Positions 9,032-37,315 of a stretch of 38,214 nucleotides of DNA are shown here, piece by piece; position 1 is the first letter of the stretch, and each line of letters opens with the position of its first letter. The DNA is from Spirochaetota bacterium (lineage in GTDB: Bacteria > Spirochaetota > Brachyspiria > Brachyspirales > JACRPF01): positions 1-38,214 of the forward strand of contig JBBTBY010000098.1 of assembly GCA_038043445.1 (NCBI GenBank). Reading direction: 5' to 3'. Under the pieces are notes generated by a model. The model was not told the origin of the DNA. It saw only the letters and a list, made by a program, of their open reading frames with translations, and ran no database searches. The translations under genes and the position numbers were made by a program.

Positions 9032-10513
9032 TTACAGTTTCGCCAGCGCCCTGAGCACATCCAACATCGCTACCGTATCCCGCTCGCAGTATTTGAGGAG
9101 CGCCGTGCGCGTGCGCTTCACCTCGTTCTTCGGCGCATCGTAATGGAGGCTTTCATACGCGCGGCTGGCCGAACTGCCGTCGGCAATATCCAGATCATCA
9201 TATCCGCCGCCTTTGACGATAGCGGGATATACGCACTTTATCGAGTATTTGCCTTTCATCGCCGGCGAATAATACGCATACGATGAGAACGGGTAAGAAA
9301 GATCGACGAGCCTCTTTACGATGGCGTTGATGCCAGCGCGGTATTTCGGCAGTTCATCGGCGAGCGCATTCAGCCGTGTCCGTTCATACGGCGTATACAT
9401 GAGGATATCGCCTTCTTTGCCCGCTTCATCGATAAGCTGCCTGACGAGCTTCTCGCGCGGGTCGTTCTTCCCGTCACCGAGGAAGACGAAATGCTCGGGC
9501 TTGGCTCCCGGCTTTTTGATCCGGTGCATGGAATACTGGAACGCTATCGTCTGATACGGATGCGTACCGTCGAATAACGGCACCGCGGGCATCATGGTCT
9601 CGAAGTCGAGGAAGTAGAGCGGATAGGTGAGCTTCGCGAGGAATTCCCGTATCTCCTCCTTTTCGATATGCGGCTTGCCGCTGCGGTAGCTCGCAAGCTC
9701 GATGGTGTTCTTGCCGCTGAGCGCGTAGTCCTTCGGTATATCGTCAAGGGCGACTATGTTCTTATCGAACAATTCCCATGCCTTCTTGCCGAAGCGTGAG
9801 AGCGTGAACACGCTGTCTTCCGGCATATCTTTCCAGCAATGACCGTAGAAAGAACATCGATACGGCGCTTCACAGTGCTGGCCGATGGCCACATCCGGCA
9901 TCTTCTTTGCCGCGAGCACTTTCTTGAGCTGCCTGACGGTATCGGCGATATCGTTTCGCATTTCCTTCGCGAGCGGCAGTACGGACTCGACGGTAAAAAG
10001 ATCCTTGATCCTTATATCGCCTTTGCGTACATACTCCTTGTTCAGGTGCACTATCGATACGTCCTTCACGTTCATCCCCGCCTCCGTGAGCACATAGTAC
10101 TGTATGGCGGCGTCAGTTGCATAGGTATCGTTGACGGCTCCGCCGCTCTTTACTTCGTAGATATGATACGCGCCGTTCCTGAGCACAAGAATATCCACCG
10201 CGGCGAGCACGCCGTTCGCTACGACTGCCGCTTCATAGATGATCTTTTTACCGTTCTTTATCGCATCCGATGTCTTCTGTATCGCCGGGCCGAAAAGCGG
10301 ACGTCCGTCTGCGTCGTGTTCCGGACTCATATCCGCTCCGCCGGGGAATATCCCCTGAGCAAGAGGGCCTATGTCATGCCCTTTGTCGAATATCGCCTGC
10401 TGCCCGTCGCTTATCTCGTCCTGCCAGTCATAGTGATGGCGATAGAGATAGAGCGACTTCTCGCATTGCATGCCGCGTACTACCGTGGATTTGCTCAGTT
10501 CGTATGCTCTCAT
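9032..10513 (-). CDS. DUF2779 RecB-like / RNase H-like nuclease
   Basis: This 493-residue protein joins a RecB-family nuclease domain to an RNase H-like domain. The nuclease part (about 1-230) shows D107, E120-V-K122, Q138 and four candidate iron-sulphur cysteines (C17, C214, C220, C226). The second part (about 297-493) shows FLDFET at 301-306, TPYER near 374-378 and LKYCERDT near 473-480, matching DUF2779. The order copies the first 500 residues of the helicase fusion at 1176-4538 but without a helicase. DNA or RNA end processing is inferred. GGAGG four bases before ATG 10513 supports the start. It is divergent from the PcfJ-like gene, and the two share one dyad promoter element in the 107-bp gap. 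Confidence 0.85.
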   Translation of the reverse strand: MRAYELSKSTVVRGMQCEKSLYLYRHHYDWQDEISDGQQAIFDKGHDIGPLAQGIFPGGADMSPEHDADGRPLFGPAIQKTSDAIKNGKKIIYEAAVVANGVLAAVDILVLRNGAYHIYEVKSGGAVNDTYATDAAIQYYVLTEAGMNVKDVSIVHLNKEYVRKGDIRIKDLFTVESVLPLAKEMRNDIADTVRQLKKVLAAKKMPDVAIGQHCEAPYRCSFYGHCWKDMPEDSVFTLSRFGKKAWELFDKNIVALDDIPKDYALSGKNTIELASYRSGKPHIEKEEIREFLAKLTYPLYFLDFETMMPAVPLFDGTHPYQTIAFQYSMHRIKKPGAKPEHFVFLGDGKNDPREKLVRQLIDEAGKEGDILMYTPYERTRLNALADELPKYRAGINAIVKRLVDLSYPFSSYAYYSPAMKGKYSIKCVYPAIVKGGGYDDLDIADGSSASRAYESLHYDAPKNEVKRTRTALLKYCERDTVAMLDVLRALAKL

Positions 10514-10566
10514 TCATCCTCCCTGTTCCGTGCGGTATATGCGAATCGAATATCCGCCTGTATTAC

Positions 10567-10614
10567 AGTATATCACATCCTGCGACAAATTCTGTCATTC
10601 CCGGATGCTATTGT
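10567..10614. promoter_or_regulatory. Shared dyad between divergent promoters (site 3)
   Basis: The dyad GCGACA-AATTC-TGTCAT (10582-10598) serves both directions. Rightward it is 10 bases from TATTGT (10609-10614), which ends six bases before the PcfJ-like ATG at 10621. Leftward it is 9 bases from TATACT (10572-10567), which precedes the DUF2779 gene. A single bound regulator could therefore control both genes. Confidence 0.6.
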
Positions 10615-10620
10615 ATCCCC

Positions 10621-12228
10621 ATGATAACAACCGAGCCGGAAGCGGCCGTCGATCGTATACGGCGGCATTTCGGGGCCGTACGCGAAGTCCCGGATATTGA
10701 GATAATGCTCCTGCCCAACGGCCACACGGTGCTCACCTGCAAGGCCGCACACGGCATCGGTGTAAGGGTGCTTCCGCACAGCGGCACTTCGTTCACGTTC
10801 ATGATGGACCTGGGATCCGACCCGCACATACTTTCGCACCCGCGGGCAGCGGATGAGCCCGATCTCTACTGGCTGCTTTCTGCGGGTGTGATCCCGATTA
10901 TGAAACAAGACTGCATGACCTCCATTACCGACTACATATGGCAGCACCTGAAAGGCGGCCGCACCGAGGACATCATTGAAACCGCAGCAGAGACGGCGAA
11001 CGACATCTGGCCCATGCATATCCCGGCCAAAGTAACGGACATCTCGGACTACCCTATCCCGGAGGCGATGAAGTTCATTCACAAAAGGCTCAGGGAATTG
11101 GCAATGTCCGCGGTTGAAATGTGCGATCCTGCCGCGCGAAAGACCGCTCTTCGCTTTCTCCCCCATGCCCGTTTCGATGTATACCGTATTCTCGTACGTC
11201 ATAATTCCGAGCGCCTGCGCGAGCTCAGCGAAACGGCCCCGGGCGTGCTGCTCTTCATAGTCGGCCTTACCCGCATAGGAGCAGGTGAAGAAGCGGAGAG
11301 AATGATACATGACGTTGAACGCGGGCGTCCGCTGAAACCCATGCTCGATGATGTTCTCCCCGCATGGCTGAGCAGGCTTATGACCTATCTCAGAAGCAAT
11401 GGCAGGGACCAGGGTTTTTTCTACGGCGGCGTTATGAACAGACTTATGAAGCTCTCGCCGGCAGAGGAAAAGCGCCTGCTGCTCGAAAAGCGGCTCCTCA
11501 TACTGCGCATGCGCCATCGTGTTCCCATCAATGCCGTCTGGCTCCCGCCGCCCATCGCCTTTTCGCCCGAGGATATACCTGTCACTACACGGGATAATGG
11601 CACATGGTACCGCGTCATGTACGGTTCACGTCTTTCCGTATGCGGCGACGAGAACGCTCCGCGCGCATCTTCGTTCATCGCCTTCATATCAAAAAATGCC
11701 GTAACGCTCGGAAGATACGCATCGAGGGGCAGCGGGAAAAAGATCGGGGAAATGTACGACTACACGGCCGCGCACGGCCTCGCGCCGGGCAGAAAGACAT
11801 CGCTCATGCGCCTTATCCGCGAGAGCAATCAATGGCACCGGACAGCGCTCGAGGTGGACAGGCTTCGCGCCGAGCTCAGAAGCGGCAATGCCGATGATGT
11901 AGCGCCGGATACGGTGCTCATGAACCCGTTCAGCGCGTGGGAACATGCGGGCTCGACCATTACGCCGATAACGACGGCGCAGCGGCTGTTCGATGAGACC
12001 GCTGCTATGAAGCACTGCGTTGCACGGTTTGTTCGGGACGCCGTTGCCGGGACGCGGTTCTTTTTCTCAGCCGTGCACGGCAAAAGCCGTCTTACCATCG
12101 AGGTCGTGAACGATAACGGCCGATACACGCTGGGCCAGGTGAAGGGTGTGAGGAATCGTGAGCCGAAGGAGAAAGAGGAAAAAATGGTGCGGCAATGGGC
12201 AGCGGAGCAAATGAAAATATCCGCATGA
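10621..12228 (+). CDS. PcfJ-like domain protein
   Basis: This 535-residue protein is of unknown function. The C-terminal region (about 440-520) looks like the PcfJ domain: TTAQRLFDETAAMKHCVARFVRDAVAGTRFFFSA, then a strand-rich LTIEVVNDNGRYTLGQVKGVRNR. PcfJ proteins take their name from a conjugative-plasmid gene and have no settled role. The N-terminal 430 residues have no motif I recognise and appear soluble and helical. No signal peptide or membrane segment is seen. The start at 10621 is preferred over far-upstream in-frame ATGs, which would overlap the divergent gene. It has no ribosome site, and its -10 hexamer ends six bases upstream, so the message is predicted leaderless. Confidence 0.75.
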   Translation: MITTEPEAAVDRIRRHFGAVREVPDIEIMLLPNGHTVLTCKAAHGIGVRVLPHSGTSFTFMMDLGSDPHILSHPRAADEPDLYWLLSAGVIPIMKQDCMTSITDYIWQHLKGGRTEDIIETAAETANDIWPMHIPAKVTDISDYPIPEAMKFIHKRLRELAMSAVEMCDPAARKTALRFLPHARFDVYRILVRHNSERLRELSETAPGVLLFIVGLTRIGAGEEAERMIHDVERGRPLKPMLDDVLPAWLSRLMTYLRSNGRDQGFFYGGVMNRLMKLSPAEEKRLLLEKRLLILRMRHRVPINAVWLPPPIAFSPEDIPVTTRDNGTWYRVMYGSRLSVCGDENAPRASSFIAFISKNAVTLGRYASRGSGKKIGEMYDYTAAHGLAPGRKTSLMRLIRESNQWHRTALEVDRLRAELRSGNADDVAPDTVLMNPFSAWEHAGSTITPITTAQRLFDETAAMKHCVARFVRDAVAGTRFFFSAVHGKSRLTIEVVNDNGRYTLGQVKGVRNREPKEKEEKMVRQWAAEQMKISA

Positions 12229-12401
12229 GGCTCAGACATGGCTCGTGATGGGGAAAAGGTGGGGATCGCGAAAATACCGGTCACTTGTTGCGACAGCATT
12301 GTGTGCATCATAACGTCATCTAGATAGTTGAGAACAAGGGGTCATGACCCCTTGTTCTCTCTTTTCGCGACTGGATCAATTGTTCAGATGGATCTGTATT
12401 T
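12229..12401. other. Convergent gap with palindrome
   Basis: No gene is seen between the convergent PcfJ-like and FlhA-like genes. In particular, no remnant of an FlhA cytoplasmic domain could be recognised here. The only structure is the 30-bp palindrome at 12330-12359. Confidence 0.5.
12330..12359. repeat. Perfect 30-bp palindrome (24-bp core repeated at 37292)
   Basis: The half-site GAGAACAAGGGGTCA is followed directly by its exact complement. The central 24 bp recur unchanged at 37292-37315. It lies between convergent genes and could fold as a bidirectional terminator, though T-tracts are poor (CTCTCTTTT to the right). A protein-binding or mobile palindromic element is equally possible. 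Confidence 0.6.
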
Positions 12402-13202
12402 TCAGCTTATGTCGCTTCTTGATCGGTTCGTCCATTCTCCGCCTGTGCTGATAGTATAGAGCGCAATCTGCGACAGCATCGAGGAGACCAACATATAAGC
12501 GGCAGATCCTGCAGCAAGCCCGCTGTATATATTTGCAGATGCGATGGGTGATGCACCGCGGAGGGATACATCGAGCAGGAATGCGGACACACACGTGAGC
12601 ATGATGAGCCCGGTGACCGTCATTATCTCGTATCTCAGTAACGTAGCCGCACCGTCAGCTGTCCCGTGCATGTCTACGATACGGCGAATTTCCTTACGCT
12701 GGGCAGTTGCTTCGTCCCATGATATCGTCTTGGCATTGAGTGCAGCATCGACCGCAAGCATTTTCGGCGGCATTGAATCCAATGCGAACTGTGCGGCAAC
12801 CTCCGATATCCTGGCCGTGCCGTGCGTGATGAGAAAGTAATTCACACCGGTGAGCACGAGGTATATGAGCATGCCGGCCGCGAAAATATGAGAAGATGCC
12901 AACACACCTGGTATTTGGATGATACGTATATCGAATGCTGTTCCTTCTGCAAGAATATGACGCATGATGGTAACTGCAAGCGTAAAACGAAATACGGTCA
13001 TCGCGAACACAACAGCCGGGAATCCATCGGCGGTGTTCCTTTTTACAGCATAATGCGCCGCAGCAAGTATGGATATGCCGAGGAATATATTCGCTGCGAG
13101 AAGTATATCGTTGATCATCGCCGGTATGGGGATGATGATGAGCGCAATGCAGGCGCATGCAAATACTGCGGACATTGCCGTGTCACATGTGTTTTTTCTC
13201 AT
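12402..13202 (-). CDS. FlhA/SctV-like export-gate protein, membrane domain only
   Basis: This 266-residue membrane protein resembles the N-terminal domain of FlhA/SctV, the export gate of flagellar and type III secretion systems. FRFTLAVTIMRHIL (71-84) matches the FlhA region after its third helix. GTARISEVAAQFALDSMPPKMLAVDAALN (128-156) matches the FHIPEP signature, with PPK in place of PGK. About six hydrophobic segments are visible (12-30, 32-50, 62-78, 105-127, 192-212, 224-250). FlhA proteins are near 690 residues with eight helices and a large cytoplasmic domain; here the last helices and the whole cytoplasmic domain are absent, and a clean stop follows. It could be a decayed paralogue or a specialised short protein. 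It has its own dyad promoter and AGGAG before the ATG, which suggests it is expressed. Confidence 0.75.
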   Translation of the reverse strand: MRKNTCDTAMSAVFACACIALIIIPIPAMINDILLAANIFLGISILAAAHYAVKRNTADGFPAVVFAMTVFRFTLAVTIMRHILAEGTAFDIRIIQIPGVLASSHIFAAGMLIYLVLTGVNYFLITHGTARISEVAAQFALDSMPPKMLAVDAALNAKTISWDEATAQRKEIRRIVDMHGTADGAATLLRYEIMTVTGLIMLTCVSAFLLDVSLRGASPIASANIYSGLAAGSAAYMLVSSMLSQIALYTISTGGEWTNRSRSDIS

Positions 13203-13221
13203 AATTCTGCTCCTTGTCCCT

Positions 13222-13254
13222 ATGGTACTGCATGGTCACGACATTATCTGCCGC
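13222..13254 (-). promoter_or_regulatory. Dyad promoter of the FlhA-like gene (site 8)
   Basis: On the minus strand GCGGCA-GATAA-TGTCGT (13254-13238) is followed by 10 bases and TACCAT (13227-13222). It overlaps the 3' end of the exonuclease gene. It is the weakest of the set, with one mismatch in the first half-site and a poor -10. Confidence 0.5.
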
Positions 13255-13732
13255 TGCGGTTTCGCCGCGTATATTTCAGGTACAGCTTTGCACATGCCGT
13301 CGCATCCGATAGCGCCTCGTGATGGTTGAGCTTTATCCCGTATTCCCTGCAGCAGTCCGCGAGCCCTTTATCATAGATCTTGTACGTGCACGCCGTCTCG
13401 TACTCCGGGACAGCGATGCCGAAATGCGCCAAGGTATGCCTGAGACAGCCGTCATCGAACGATATATTATGAGCGACAACAAGTTCGCCCTCGATGTACT
13501 TTTGTATCTCCGGCCAAACTCGATCGAACGTCCTTGCATCGGCGGTCATTGCCGCATCGATGCCGTGTATCTCGATGAAATCCGATCGGTAACTGTTCCC
13601 CGGCGGCTGTACGAGCGATGAATACGTGCGCTGTATCCTGCCGCGTACAACGCGCACAAGGCCGACCTGGCATATACTTGTTCTCCCGGTGCTGGCAGTC
13701 TCAAAATCAATGGCGGTGAATGTGTTTTTCAT
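13244..13732 (-). CDS. DEDDh 3'-5' exonuclease, DnaQ-like
   Basis: This 162-residue exonuclease is of the DnaQ/Pol III epsilon type. The motifs are FTAIDFETAS (D9, E11), AHNISFDD (D93 or D94) and NHHEALSDA (H138, D143), making a complete DEDDh set. It lacks any extra domain and is shorter than a replicative epsilon subunit. A repair, RNA-processing or small-exonuclease role is therefore more likely than the core proofreading one. Its ATG overlaps the TGA of the preceding DnaB-N-like gene (ATGA at 13729-13732), which implies translational coupling. It is the last gene of a three-gene operon headed by the dyad promoter at 14710-14742. Confidence 0.9.
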   Translation of the reverse strand: MKNTFTAIDFETASTGRTSICQVGLVRVVRGRIQRTYSSLVQPPGNSYRSDFIEIHGIDAAMTADARTFDRVWPEIQKYIEGELVVAHNISFDDGCLRHTLAHFGIAVPEYETACTYKIYDKGLADCCREYGIKLNHHEALSDATACAKLYLKYTRRNRSGR

Positions 13733-14202
13733 TTCTCATCCTTCATCGGCGGGAACGGATACCGTGTCTGTATGAATTCATGAAGCTCGGATATGCGCGC
13801 GGCAACGGATGCAACGGCGTGTTCGTCGCCGGGCGCCCTCATGCTGAGCATTATACTTATAAGCCGCTTCCATATCTTTCTGAGGAGCGAGACCTCAAGA
13901 AGCTTAATCGCGTAGTAGTATGTACGCGTAACATCCGGTATGACGTCGATAAGTTCGCGGATACGGGCCTGGCGTTCATCCGGGGTTTTCTCGTTAAGGT
14001 AGCGCTCAAATAATTTCTCAGCCGAGAATTTTTTCTTTTCTTTGAACGCATGCCGAAGATCGCGGTAAAGCTCGCGGTGGAGATCGTCGGCGAAGTCGTC
14101 CGGTTCCAGAAGGTCGATGGCGACCGCCGCCGCACCCGGCGACTGGAGCATGGAGCCGAGCACAAGCCGCTCCTCCTCTACGGGAATATCGTCATACTTC
14201 AT
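13729..14202 (-). CDS. Stand-alone DnaB N-terminal-domain protein
   Basis: This 157-residue protein resembles only the N-terminal helical domain of replicative DnaB helicase. The clearest part is residues 6-60, PVEEERLVLGSMLQSPGAAAVAIDLLEPDDFADDLHRELYRDLRHAF, which matches the usual DnaB opening of EAE-type start, LGA-like helix and F-x-x-x-H-x-x-I-Y. There is no P-loop or RecA-type helicase domain; DnaB is about 450 residues. In DnaB this domain forms the trimer-of-dimers collar and contacts primase. The start at 14202 is preferred over 14235, since GGGAAAG lies just upstream. The gene overlaps the end of the upstream gene and is coupled to the exonuclease gene. Interaction with the host helicase or primase is inference. 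Confidence 0.7.
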   Translation of the reverse strand: MKYDDIPVEEERLVLGSMLQSPGAAAVAIDLLEPDDFADDLHRELYRDLRHAFKEKKKFSAEKLFERYLNEKTPDERQARIRELIDVIPDVTRTYYYAIKLLEVSLLRKIWKRLISIMLSMRAPGDEHAVASVAARISELHEFIQTRYPFPPMKDEK

Positions 14203-14689
14203 GCTCTTTCCCTGCGGCGAACACCCGCGCCGCATCGAGCACGACGCGTATGGAAGCCGCGCTCATGAGCTCTTCGGGCTGATGCACGAGCGGATGGCGT
14301 TTGAGCCGCGCGATAAGGCCGTAGTCGAGCGTCTTGAAACGGAGCTCTACGAAAACACGCGCATCAAGCGTGAGCGTACGGAGAGCGGCCGCGAAACGCG
14401 TTTCCGCCTGCCTGAGCCCCTCCGCGAGCGACGCGCTGTCGCTTTTTTTCACGGATTCAGAAAGCCGCAGGAGCTCTTTCTTCAATTCGGACGCCCTTTG
14501 TTTTGCAGCATCATCGGCAAAGAAGGCCGGAAAATCATCAAAAATATGCGCGGCATCCAGCGTGATCTCGCATTGCCCTGCGGGGGAAGAATATACCGCA
14601 TACGCATTCCTGTCGGCTTCGGGCACATCGGCGCAGAGAGCCTTGAACCGTACCAGTGCCGCATCATAGAGTTTTTTCGTGTCAATCAT
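14192..14689 (-). CDS. Unknown soluble protein heading the DnaB-N/exonuclease operon
   Basis: This 165-residue protein matches no family I recognise. It appears soluble and mostly helical, with a charged central helix (about 66-100, SELKKELLRLSESVKKSDSASLAEGLRQAE) that may form a coiled coil. It has no signal peptide or membrane segment. An AGGAGG seven bases before ATG 14689 is the best ribosome site nearby. It is the first gene of the operon driven by the dyad promoter, and its 3' end overlaps the DnaB-N-like gene by 11 bases. The operon partners hint at nucleic-acid metabolism, which is inference from context only. Confidence 0.7.
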   Translation of the reverse strand: MIDTKKLYDAALVRFKALCADVPEADRNAYAVYSSPAGQCEITLDAAHIFDDFPAFFADDAAKQRASELKKELLRLSESVKKSDSASLAEGLRQAETRFAAALRTLTLDARVFVELRFKTLDYGLIARLKRHPLVHQPEELMSAASIRVVLDAARVFAAGKEHEV

Positions 14690-14908: not shown

Positions 14909-15307
14909 ATGACACCCGATGATGCTGTTACACATTGGATAGAGATCGCTGCGCGCGATCATGACACGGCAAAGCTGCTTCACGAACACGGGAAATATCC
15001 CGAATCGGTGTTTTTCTGCCATCAAACCCTTGAGAAGATCATCAAAGGCTATTACTATTCTGTAAAACGATCCGCTCCGCCATATATACATAATCTGACC
15101 AGACTTATCAAGGAAGCGGGCATTTATGAACTGCTTTCAGAAGAGCAGAAGGATTTCATTGATTTCCTGAGTCCGCTCAATGTGCGTTCACGTTATCTTG
15201 ATGAGGAAGAACGGCTGCTTGCTGCAATGACCCCGGAACGCTGCGGGGAGATAGTGAAAAGAACGGAGGGACTGTATCAATGGATACTGACGTTATTGAA
15301 AAAGTAA
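14909..15307 (+). CDS. HEPN-domain toxin-like protein
   Basis: This 132-residue four-helix HEPN protein opens with AVTHWIEIAARDHDTAKLLHEHGKYPESVFFCHQTLEKIIKGYYY, the standard HEPN start. R54-x6-H61 (RSAPPYIH) fits the HEPN RX4-6H ribonuclease motif. Such proteins are usually the toxin partner of an MNT nucleotidyltransferase, which follows here with a 28-base overlap. In characterised pairs the MNT protein inactivates the HEPN toxin by adding nucleotides; that is family knowledge and not shown here. GGTGG precedes the ATG, and a TATACT hexamer at 14872-14877 could be its -10, but no good -35 was found. Confidence 0.88.
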   Translation: MTPDDAVTHWIEIAARDHDTAKLLHEHGKYPESVFFCHQTLEKIIKGYYYSVKRSAPPYIHNLTRLIKEAGIYELLSEEQKDFIDFLSPLNVRSRYLDEEERLLAAMTPERCGEIVKRTEGLYQWILTLLKK

Positions 15308-15582
15308 AGCAGTATGCAGAAGCTGTTCGTGCGGTAATGCCGGTAAAAATGATCATACTGTACGGATCATACGCACGCGGCACACAGAACAGGTACAGCG
15401 ATATCGATGTCGCTGTCGTTTGCGATAAGTTGAACGGGGATATCCTTGACATCAGCTTTCAGCTGTATAAGCTCCGCCGTCCGATCGATACCGATATAGA
15501 GCCGATACTGCTCGAGTCCGGTGATGATTTCTTACGCTCTATCCTTGAATATGGGACCGTGGTGTATCCATCCGCTGCATAG
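15280..15582 (+). CDS. MNT-type minimal nucleotidyltransferase (antitoxin)
   Basis: This 100-residue protein carries the polymerase-beta-type nucleotidyltransferase signature GSYARG (29-34) followed by D41-I-D43. A further acidic residue lies in DTDIEPILLE (about 71-80). Its length is normal for minimal MNT proteins. Overlap with the HEPN gene implies coupled translation, as usual for this module. It ends 18 bases before the end of the convergent MBL gene. Confidence 0.9.
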   Translation: MDTDVIEKVKQYAEAVRAVMPVKMIILYGSYARGTQNRYSDIDVAVVCDKLNGDILDISFQLYKLRRPIDTDIEPILLESGDDFLRSILEYGTVVYPSAA

Positions 15583-17927: not shown

Positions 17928-20099
17928 CTACTCGCGAGGCACGCGGAAGCCGATGCCGGGTTTTGCCGACCCCGTCCGCGAATCGGCCTCATGCCTGAGC
18001 AATGCCGCTATCTTCTCGGCGGTCGGATCCGGGTCGAACACTATCTGCTGATACACGTCCTTGAAATCCCCTATGGCAAGCATTTCCGCAAAGGCCACTG
18101 TTTTGACAAGCGCGCATAATTCGTGATCGGGAAGAATATCGCCGAATATCTTCTGTGCGGCGTCGATGCACTGCGCCCCGGAAAGATAATCGAAACGGAC
18201 CTTGAAGGCGAACCGACGAAGGCTCGCGCGGTCGAAATTATCGATGAAATTCGTCGTGCAGATGAGAATGCCCGTGAAACGCTCCATGGCGTTGAGGAGC
18301 TCATTGACCTGCGAGATCTCCCATGAACGTTGTGCATTCTCGCGCCGCTGGAAGAAGGAATCCGCCTCGTCAAAGAGGAGTATGCCGTTCTGCTGCTCGG
18401 TCTCATCGAAGGCCGCGCGTATGTTCTTCTCGCTCCCACCGACGTACATGTCGAAGATGTCCGAGGCGCGTTTTATGATGAGCGGTTTTCCCGCGCTCTC
18501 GGCGATGTAGCGCGCGAACTCGGATTTCCCCACCCCGGGTGCCCCGTGGAACAGCATATTGAGGTTCTTTACCGGCAATGCGAGCTTCTTTTTTTTTAGG
18601 TCGGTAAAACGTTCGACGGCGTCGATGATGCTCTCGGGCTTCGTATCGATGGAAAGGAAGGAGAGATCATAATGGCCTGATATCCTGTCGGCGGTGCTCA
18701 CCGTGCGTCCCTTCTCGAGCGAGCTCATACTGACAAGCACGCGCTCAAGGCGGCTTGAAAGTTCGGCAGCGGAAAGGCCTTTCATCTCCCCGACGCGTTT
18801 CAGCGCAAGCGTCGTCTGCCCCACCGTCATGCGGTTCTCCTTGATGAAGCTCTGTATCGTTTCGGTATATGCCTCTTCGGGAATGCCCTCGCGCTCAATG
18901 CCCTGCCGGCAGATACGCTCGTTCACGTCGTGCGGCATGGTGTCGAAACGCATCGAATAGCTGAAACGGCGGCGAACGGCCTCGTGCATATGGCGTATGC
19001 CGTTGACTATCCAGATGACGGGTATGTTCCCGCGGTCAAGCGCTTCTATAACGGGCGATTTATCGGTGCTGTTCTCGTTGAACATGGACATGGTATTGAG
19101 CACGGCATCGGCCTCGTCGAATATGATCGCGGATGATGCTGCCTCGCGGTGTATGCGCTGGCAGAGCGAAAAATAACCCAGACGCATCTCCTCCGGCGCC
19201 GGCGCCTTCCTGTCCTTGCCGTCCTCGTCGGTCTCTTTCTCGCGGAACTGCTCGATGGAAAGCGCGCGTATCTTGAGCGAAGACAGTATGCTCCGCGCAT
19301 ATTCGGTCTTCCCCGTGCCGGGCCTTCCGTAGAGGAGGATGTTCACTCCGCGCGTCCGCTGCCGTACAGCGTTCGTCAGTATATCGCGTACGATGACGCT
19401 GTCCTTATCGAGGTGGCGGAAATTCCGCATACCCATCCCCCGCGGGACTTCACGGAAAAAATGAGAGAATATTTCCGTGCCCTTGACGGCACTGCTCGTT
19501 ATCGCTGCGGCAATGCCGCTGTCGATGGCGATGTTATTGAACGGGTGATATCCCCCTGTTTTCCTGAGTATTTTCGACGCATGAAGCGTGCTGTCCGGCG
19601 AAAGTGCCTTGAGCAGGAACGGCACAGGGAGTCGGGTGACGATGTTCAGATAGCGCACGCTCGCCATGAAATTGTTCACGCCGAGACTGATATCGGAAAG
19701 ATCGAACATATAGGATATGATCGCTGTTATAAGGAGCGTTTTTTCCTTCCGGCCGAGCCCGAGCGAACGTATAATGCCGTCTATCTTCGTTTCCATCTGC
19801 GAGCCTTCGCGCGGCGGTTCTGCCGCCGTTGCCGCTATCAGCGACATTATCTTCTGAAGGAAGGCGCGTGTACGCTTTCTGTTCGCGGCATCGTTCTCCC
19901 CGTCGCGGCAGAGCTTCTTTTCCGCATAGAGCGATTTGATGAGGCGTTTATCGTCGTAGATGAACGAAAATGCGCTCAGGATGACCAGCCATTCATTATC
20001 GCTGATATAGAGCACGGTCTTTTCCGCGGAGAGCTTCAGGATGCGCTTGAGTATCTCGACCAGATTGCGCCGTATAAAAGCCTTATCGTTCAAGTCCAT
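17928..20099 (-). CDS. Double-AAA ATPase (SpoVK/CDC48-like class)
   Basis: This 723-residue protein carries two AAA+ modules. Module 1 has Walker A GRPGTGKT (258-265) and Walker B IIFDEAD (325-331). Module 2 has GAPGVGKS (519-526), LLFDEAD (574-580) and SLRRFAFKVRFDY near 627-638, with arginine-finger candidates. The first 240 residues are helical with no known domain. Both modules keep the catalytic residues, so it is probably an active unfoldase or remodelling ATPase; its targets are unknown. GGAGG lies five bases before ATG 20099. It is monocistronic under a dyad promoter. The leftward M48/MBL operon after it has its own dyad. Confidence 0.85.
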   Translation of the reverse strand: MDLNDKAFIRRNLVEILKRILKLSAEKTVLYISDNEWLVILSAFSFIYDDKRLIKSLYAEKKLCRDGENDAANRKRTRAFLQKIMSLIAATAAEPPREGSQMETKIDGIIRSLGLGRKEKTLLITAIISYMFDLSDISLGVNNFMASVRYLNIVTRLPVPFLLKALSPDSTLHASKILRKTGGYHPFNNIAIDSGIAAAITSSAVKGTEIFSHFFREVPRGMGMRNFRHLDKDSVIVRDILTNAVRQRTRGVNILLYGRPGTGKTEYARSILSSLKIRALSIEQFREKETDEDGKDRKAPAPEEMRLGYFSLCQRIHREAASSAIIFDEADAVLNTMSMFNENSTDKSPVIEALDRGNIPVIWIVNGIRHMHEAVRRRFSYSMRFDTMPHDVNERICRQGIEREGIPEEAYTETIQSFIKENRMTVGQTTLALKRVGEMKGLSAAELSSRLERVLVSMSSLEKGRTVSTADRISGHYDLSFLSIDTKPESIIDAVERFTDLKKKKLALPVKNLNMLFHGAPGVGKSEFARYIAESAGKPLIIKRASDIFDMYVGGSEKNIRAAFDETEQQNGILLFDEADSFFQRRENAQRSWEISQVNELLNAMERFTGILICTTNFIDNFDRASLRRFAFKVRFDYLSGAQCIDAAQKIFGDILPDHELCALVKTVAFAEMLAIGDFKDVYQQIVFDPDPTAEKIAALLRHEADSRTGSAKPGIGFRVPRE

Positions 20100-37291: not shown

Positions 37292-37315
37292 AACAAGGGG
37301 TCATGACCCCTTGTT
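37292..37315. repeat. Perfect 24-bp palindrome (second copy)
   Basis: AACAAGGGGTCA is followed directly by its exact complement, identical to the core of 12330-12359, about 25 kb away. It lies between the secreted-protein gene and the P13-like gene, with no T-tract after it. Confidence 0.65.

Follow-up and report, generated by a model that had tools for sequence, protein, structure and literature searches.

A truncated and diverged FlhA paralogue in a Spirochaetota genome that retains the FHIPEP loop and may act as a gate modifier

The short FHIPEP gene and its surroundings

This analysis dealt with a short gene of the FHIPEP family in a Spirochaetota bacterium (GenBank assembly GCA_038043445.1). 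The window, that is, the whole stretch of DNA analysed (38,214 nt), is an entire contig (C98) from a draft genome of 5.13 Mb in 178 contigs, which is 97% complete and has an estimated contamination of 1.95%. The gene lies on the minus strand (12402..13202) and was delimited from the frame list, a profile match and an alignment. It specifies a protein of 266 aa comprising TM1-TM6 and a cytoplasmic FHIPEP loop, and its 266 codons run from an ATG without an internal stop; start, ribosome-binding site and stop are all intact. An earlier note on this DNA, made from the letters alone, had described the ribosome site as good, and the printed sequence bears this out, with AAGGAG (13210..13215, minus strand) placed 7 nt ahead of the ATG.

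A single Pfam family, PF00771 (FHIPEP), was found in the protein, with residues 19-247 corresponding to positions 2-230 of the 657-position profile. At an E-value of 3.9e-43 and 148.3 bits, against a curated cut-off of 29.1, the FHIPEP homology reported in the earlier note, the lack of which would have overturned its reading, is certain. Among the NCBIfam models, FlhA (TIGR01398) scored higher than HrcV/SctV (TIGR01399), with 139.9 and 126.9 bits, respectively, both far under the equivalog cut-offs of 772.1 and 692.25 bits. Five distinct sequences of solved structures matched, the best of them an FlhA chain over residues 15-244. A profile with no assigned function, phrog_12657, covered residues 112-241 (E-value 3.9e-20), although the profile itself is 579 positions long.

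When the short protein was aligned with 19 FlhA proteins, namely that of E. coli K-12, that of its own genome and 17 from other members of the phylum, it corresponded to the first third of FlhA only. It spans TM1-TM4 and, beyond the cytoplasmic loop, TM5 and TM6, and terminates just past TM6, so that the estimate of about six helices was right. An AlphaFold2 model from a two-sequence alignment gave low-confidence helices for the six (mean pLDDT 45.8), in a pattern that agrees with TM1-6. TM7, TM8, the linker and the entire cytoplasmic domain are missing. In FlhA, the cytoplasmic domain builds the nonameric ring and binds chaperone-substrate complexes. The description of the protein as an FHIPEP family member reduced to its membrane domain therefore stands for the family and for the loss of the cytoplasmic part, but not for the membrane part, since TM7 and TM8 are gone as well. 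No C-terminal remnant of FlhA was found in the window by tblastn with two FlhA C-terminal parts (best E-value 0.77), as had been noted earlier, which rules out a once complete gene whose remainder lies further downstream. Judged by homology, the short gene is a real, diverged and truncated FlhA paralogue, and not a complete membrane domain.

Three genes precede it on the minus strand. A DnaQ/RNase T-like 3'-5' exonuclease (13244..13732), identified by profile matches, is separated from the short gene by 41 nt. Its start is overlapped by 4 nt by the gene of a stand-alone DnaB N-terminal-domain protein of 168 aa (13729..14235, profile match), which is itself overlapped by the gene of a 165-aa protein (14192..14689; frame list and profile search) to which no family was assigned and which opens the probable transcription unit. 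These three frames overlap, the 41-nt gap follows, and the short gene probably closes a four-gene run that begins at 14689. The DnaB N-terminal domain, without its helicase domain, is a second 'domain only' gene in this run. Matches to the 165-aa protein were found in two of 392 genomes of the phylum, one of them the genome studied here; the other match, in G160, was weak, and the neighbouring frames listed there looked unlike FlhA by eye.

The suggestion that the short gene has its own promoter of a shared dyad class was dropped. The minus strand of the 41-nt gap held no sigma-70-like site, the scan printed no inverted repeat of at least 6 bp in the 100 nt before the ATG, and two stretches of the upstream region had no second copy anywhere in the window when as many as 3 mismatches were allowed. 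The only strong dyad beside the gene lies past its stop, a perfect palindrome (12330..12359, no strand assigned) forming a terminator-like hairpin of 13 pairs (fold z -3.4 in the repeat and fold scan), which looks like a terminator or a repeat element. Its 22-bp core, ACAAGGGGTCATGACCCCTTGT, occurs at 12334-12355 and again at 37293-37314, with 13 exact copies in the genome and a further three with one mismatch, and parts of it also match G001, a relative, at several places; it may be a terminator or a binding site that is repeated.

Other genes in the window include one for a PcfJ-like protein (10495-12228, plus strand; PF14284 at residues 462-564), which converges on the short gene, and one for an AAA ATPase-like protein (17928-20099, minus strand) resembling the PADLOC IetA models (E-value 3.3e-34). 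On the plus strand at 14909-15582, a HEPN-domain protein is followed by a frame that by eye looks like a nucleotidyltransferase, a probable toxin-antitoxin-like pair.

The intact flagellar gate and the distribution of the short form

Two FHIPEP matches were found in this genome, the short gene and, on another contig (C80), a full-length FlhA that is 694 aa long. There, FliP-, FliR- and FlhB-like frames are followed by flhA and then by FlhF-, FlhG- and FliA-like frames; names other than FlhA, FlhB and FliP were assigned from sequence by eye. Since the full-length FlhA is part of an intact fliP-fliR-flhB-flhA cluster, the short gene, which has neither flhB nor other flagellar genes beside it, represents an extra paralogue rather than the broken remains of a sole copy. 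Searches for the FlhB/SctU and FliP/SctR families gave one match each, both in the flagellar cluster, which rules out a second export gate as far as these two families are concerned. In the injectisome export gate protein SctV/HrcV the homology covers the same part of the short protein, but the match is weaker than that to FlhA, and the genome has no separate FlhB or FliP family partners for an injectisome.

A contaminating or mis-assembled sequence might be suspected in a draft of 178 contigs with some estimated contamination. However, stretches of the contig carrying pyrB/pyrC and gnd (names by eye) share 77 and 81% DNA identity with G001, the only other genome of the same family among those examined, indicating that the contig belongs to the lineage. 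The core of the short gene itself is 82% identical to G001 flhA DNA over 72 bp, and the neighbouring frames are intact, making an artefact scarcely credible.

The short form appears to be confined to this genome. FHIPEP matches were present in 97 of 100 relatives and in 343 of 392 genomes of the phylum, the latter ordered by their E-value to the short protein, which should place an orthologue at the top. Among the matches listed for the 100 relatives, all frames were at least 637 aa long except those of G053 (340 aa), G070 (243 aa), G061 (183 aa) and the short gene, and the matches listed for the 392 genomes added frames of less than 500 aa in G206, G136, G215 and G104. Six of these seven frames run off contig ends, while the seventh, in G104, stops after 477 aa and is much longer than the short gene. 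No comparable six-helix FHIPEP form was thus seen outside this genome among the matches listed for the 392 genomes, nor in G001.

Sequence collections were also scanned. No relative was confirmed among 105 pattern matches in one scan of viral contigs, leaving a viral origin unsupported. A single locus, a full-length gene of the G001 type, came out of one scan of named genome contigs. Of 10 records in a phage collection with FlhA/SctV-like stretches at less than 60% identity, nine lacked annotation, and a plasmid collection held 463 records with a match at less than 60% identity. No truncated or membrane-only FlhA was recognised in the literature, as judged on brief descriptions.

Uneven divergence, and the question of selection or decay

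The short protein shares 34% identity with the FlhA of its own genome, compared with 82% between that FlhA and the one of G001, and the divergence is unevenly distributed. The best conserved part is the FHIPEP loop between TM4 and TM5 (residues 124-187; 12642..12833, minus strand), in which 38 of 64 residues (59%) are identical to the genome's own FlhA. For TM1-4 the figure is 39/115, and for the TM5-TM6 part (residues 188-252; 12447..12641, minus strand), which is still hydrophobic, it falls to 9/65 (14%). The gap between loop and TM5-6 is significant (Fisher p 6.5e-8), and no such gap separates E. coli FlhA from the same reference (42/64 in the loop and 35/65 in TM5-6, p 0.21). Residues invariant in the 19 FlhA proteins follow the same order, with 19/28 kept in the loop, 16/29 in TM1-4 and 3/19 in TM5-6. 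Segment FALDSMPPKMLAVDA of the short protein agrees best with the FlhA of its own family.

Synonymous differences from flhA at shared residues are, on the other hand, even (21/36 in the loop, 27/47 in the rest, p 1.0), which means that the loop has not been renewed by gene conversion, and conversion by flhA is accordingly not supported as a cause of the pattern. Overall, synonymous divergence is near saturation (0.58, where 0.67 is expected with a 95% range of 0.57-0.76) and exceeds the level between flhA and its G001 counterpart (83/204; p 0.009), which suggests either that the copy predates the separation of the two genera or that it changes more rapidly. In the protein tree, the short branch measured 3.45 substitutions per site; in AU tests, a position as sister to the genome's own FlhA was not rejected (p 0.469 with the G001 protein included, 0.469 with the own protein alone), and neither were many other branches. 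The earlier note had allowed that relatives might carry a full-length gene at this place and that the copy might be a recent deletion, but by its divergence the copy is old, and flhA lies elsewhere in the genome.

The main rival to a functional protein is a truncated flhA duplicate that is decaying slowly, has so far been spared stops and frameshifts, and has no function or a vanishing one. Its chances are appreciable, if well short of even. The very long branch and the restriction to one genome suit this explanation, as does the GC content by codon position, which is flat in the short gene (0.51/0.47/0.55), compared with 0.56/0.37/0.75 in the first 780 nt of flhA. The codon-position contrast of the whole gene is weak, being reached by 30/500 and 4/500 neutral simulations, and the pattern region by region is compatible with neutral change. 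An open frame survived neutral drift to the present identity in 4/200, 3/200 and 17/200 simulations, one figure for each of three GC settings, with indels ignored, and this stop-codon simulation alone is weak evidence.

Several results speak against decay. With each of two GC settings, 500 neutral simulations were run, and not one produced a contrast between loop and TM5-6 as large as that observed. Neutral change that took TM5-6 to its present divergence would have had to carry the loop with it, and a retained function is favoured for this reason. The hydropathy of TM5 was rare under neutrality (3/154 simulations) and the loss of charged residues from TM6 was matched in 0/146, while the hydropathies of TM4 and TM6 were unremarkable (60/188 and 27/146). 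The intact start, ribosome site and stop also sit poorly with decay. In a codon model on the short branch, the check that had been proposed for constraint, omega=1 was rejected for the whole gene with two outgroups (2dlnL 13.2 and 10.8) and, by region, for TM1-4 and TM5-6 but not for the loop (2dlnL 2.3 and 2.6), in estimates for which synonymous sites are near saturation and some of the purifying signal may predate the truncation. The proposal of a functional short form thus gains indirect support, from the uneven amino-acid divergence set against even synonymous divergence and from the kept hydropathy. On this pattern, the short protein has probably been kept by selection, with no great confidence, and two readings of it compete, a selected protein that carries the FHIPEP loop and may modify the gate, and a slowly decaying duplicate.

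Proton-path residues and a possible role at the export gate

The functional meaning of the changes can be considered against published work on the Salmonella FlhA membrane ring. In the portion of a preprint drawn on here (PMC13308203, 2026), the core of the ring is formed by TM2-6, with TM1 and TM7-8 packing on neighbours, and the segment between TM4 and TM5 forms a cytoplasmic FHIPEP cup crossed by the FlhB linker helix. A proton path is described there from R94, the R85-D208 salt bridge, D249, N137 and Q254 to R147, R154, D158 and D199; D249 and Q254 are reported as essential, and N137 likewise in Salmonella. From an earlier study (PMC3139655, 2011), also cited in part, R94, D208 and D249 are critical, and their alanine mutants are dominant over wild type, while D208E is partly functional; genetic suppression in the same study ties the TM4-TM5 loop to FliR.

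In E. coli K-12 numbering, in which all 14 checked residues named in the papers had the expected letter, the short protein is the same as E. coli FlhA at D45, R85, R94, N137, R147, D158, P161, D199 and R206. It differs by R154Q, K203T, D208E, D249S, Q254L and R270G, with the alignment of positions 203 to 270 being less certain, as TM5-6 is very diverged and a second alignment put a gap there. Of the residues reported as essential for proton-driven export in FlhA, R94 and N137 are kept and D208, D249 and Q254 are changed. Judging from these substitutions, the upper part of the proton path is most likely interrupted within TM5-6, and the protein is very probably a diverged paralogue that could not act alone as an export engine.

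The earlier idea of a proton or ion channel is affected directly. An autonomous channel would be consistent with the retention of R85, R94, N at position 137, D158 and D199, and with an acidic residue (E) at 208. However, D249S and Q254L take away residues reported as essential in the preprint, K203T, R154Q and R270G alter further positions, TM7-8 is absent, and the part of the preprint used here makes the case that a stable FlhA ring needs the export gate at its centre. Together, the path changes and the loss of TM7-8 make an autonomous channel or export engine unlikely, and the channel in particular very improbable.

Another explanation is that a former piece of FlhA has become a membrane protein with an unrelated role, such as anchoring the proteins encoded in its operon (the exonuclease and the DnaB-N-like protein), without contact with the flagellum. 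The operon-like place behind DNA-metabolism genes, outside the flagellar cluster, would fit, as would the re-evolution of TM5-6 into plain hydrophobic helices. Retention of a loop with the gate-facing residues R147, D158, P161 and D199 would be unexpected if all old partners had been lost, and the operon is not conserved elsewhere, the 165-aa gene being nearly restricted to this genome among the 392. This explanation is unlikely.

The best reading of the sequence comparisons, to which a probability of about 0.4 is given, is that the short protein has been repurposed to carry the FHIPEP loop in the membrane and may modify the gate. The gene is an old, fast-evolving, C-terminally truncated FlhA paralogue, in which selection, to go by the pattern of change, maintains a membrane-inserted protein that shows the loop to the cytoplasm and does not maintain an export engine. 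The loop may engage the partners of the FHIPEP cup in the gate, whether the FlhB linker, the FliR loop or neighbouring FlhA subunits, and as a regulatory or decoy subunit the protein could lower or tune flagellar export. A decoy or brake is made plausible by the dominance of mutant FlhA subunits (PMC3139655, cited in part). The earlier note had suggested that the protein might modify a complete export gate, and the organism does have one. The flagellar gate as target can be put forward tentatively, and the full proposal, in which selection maintains a stand-alone cup carrier that has shed proton-path residues and ring domain and serves as a brake or adaptor on the export gate, is doubtful.

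Against the loop-carrier reading stand the occurrence of the gene in a single genome, with no orthologue by which present-day constraint could be gauged, the signs of relaxed constraint and near-neutral codon patterns already described, the codon-model result for the loop, and the position outside the flagellar cluster. In addition, TM5-6 is diverged and TM7-8 absent, though both contribute to the nonamer.

FlhA is currently viewed as one machine, made up of a proton-driven membrane ring, a cytoplasmic FHIPEP cup and a docking ring. If the loop-carrier reading is true, a stand-alone cup carrier would separate the function of the cup from proton conduction and substrate docking. A natural protein with the cup and six helices, lacking several key proton-path residues and the docking ring, would be a ready reagent for what the cup does alone, and would also allow the question of whether mixed rings can tune export to be asked, albeit from one genome.

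A minor observation concerns FlhA position 137, which is Q in all 18 aligned FlhA proteins of the phylum and N in E. coli FlhA and in the short protein.
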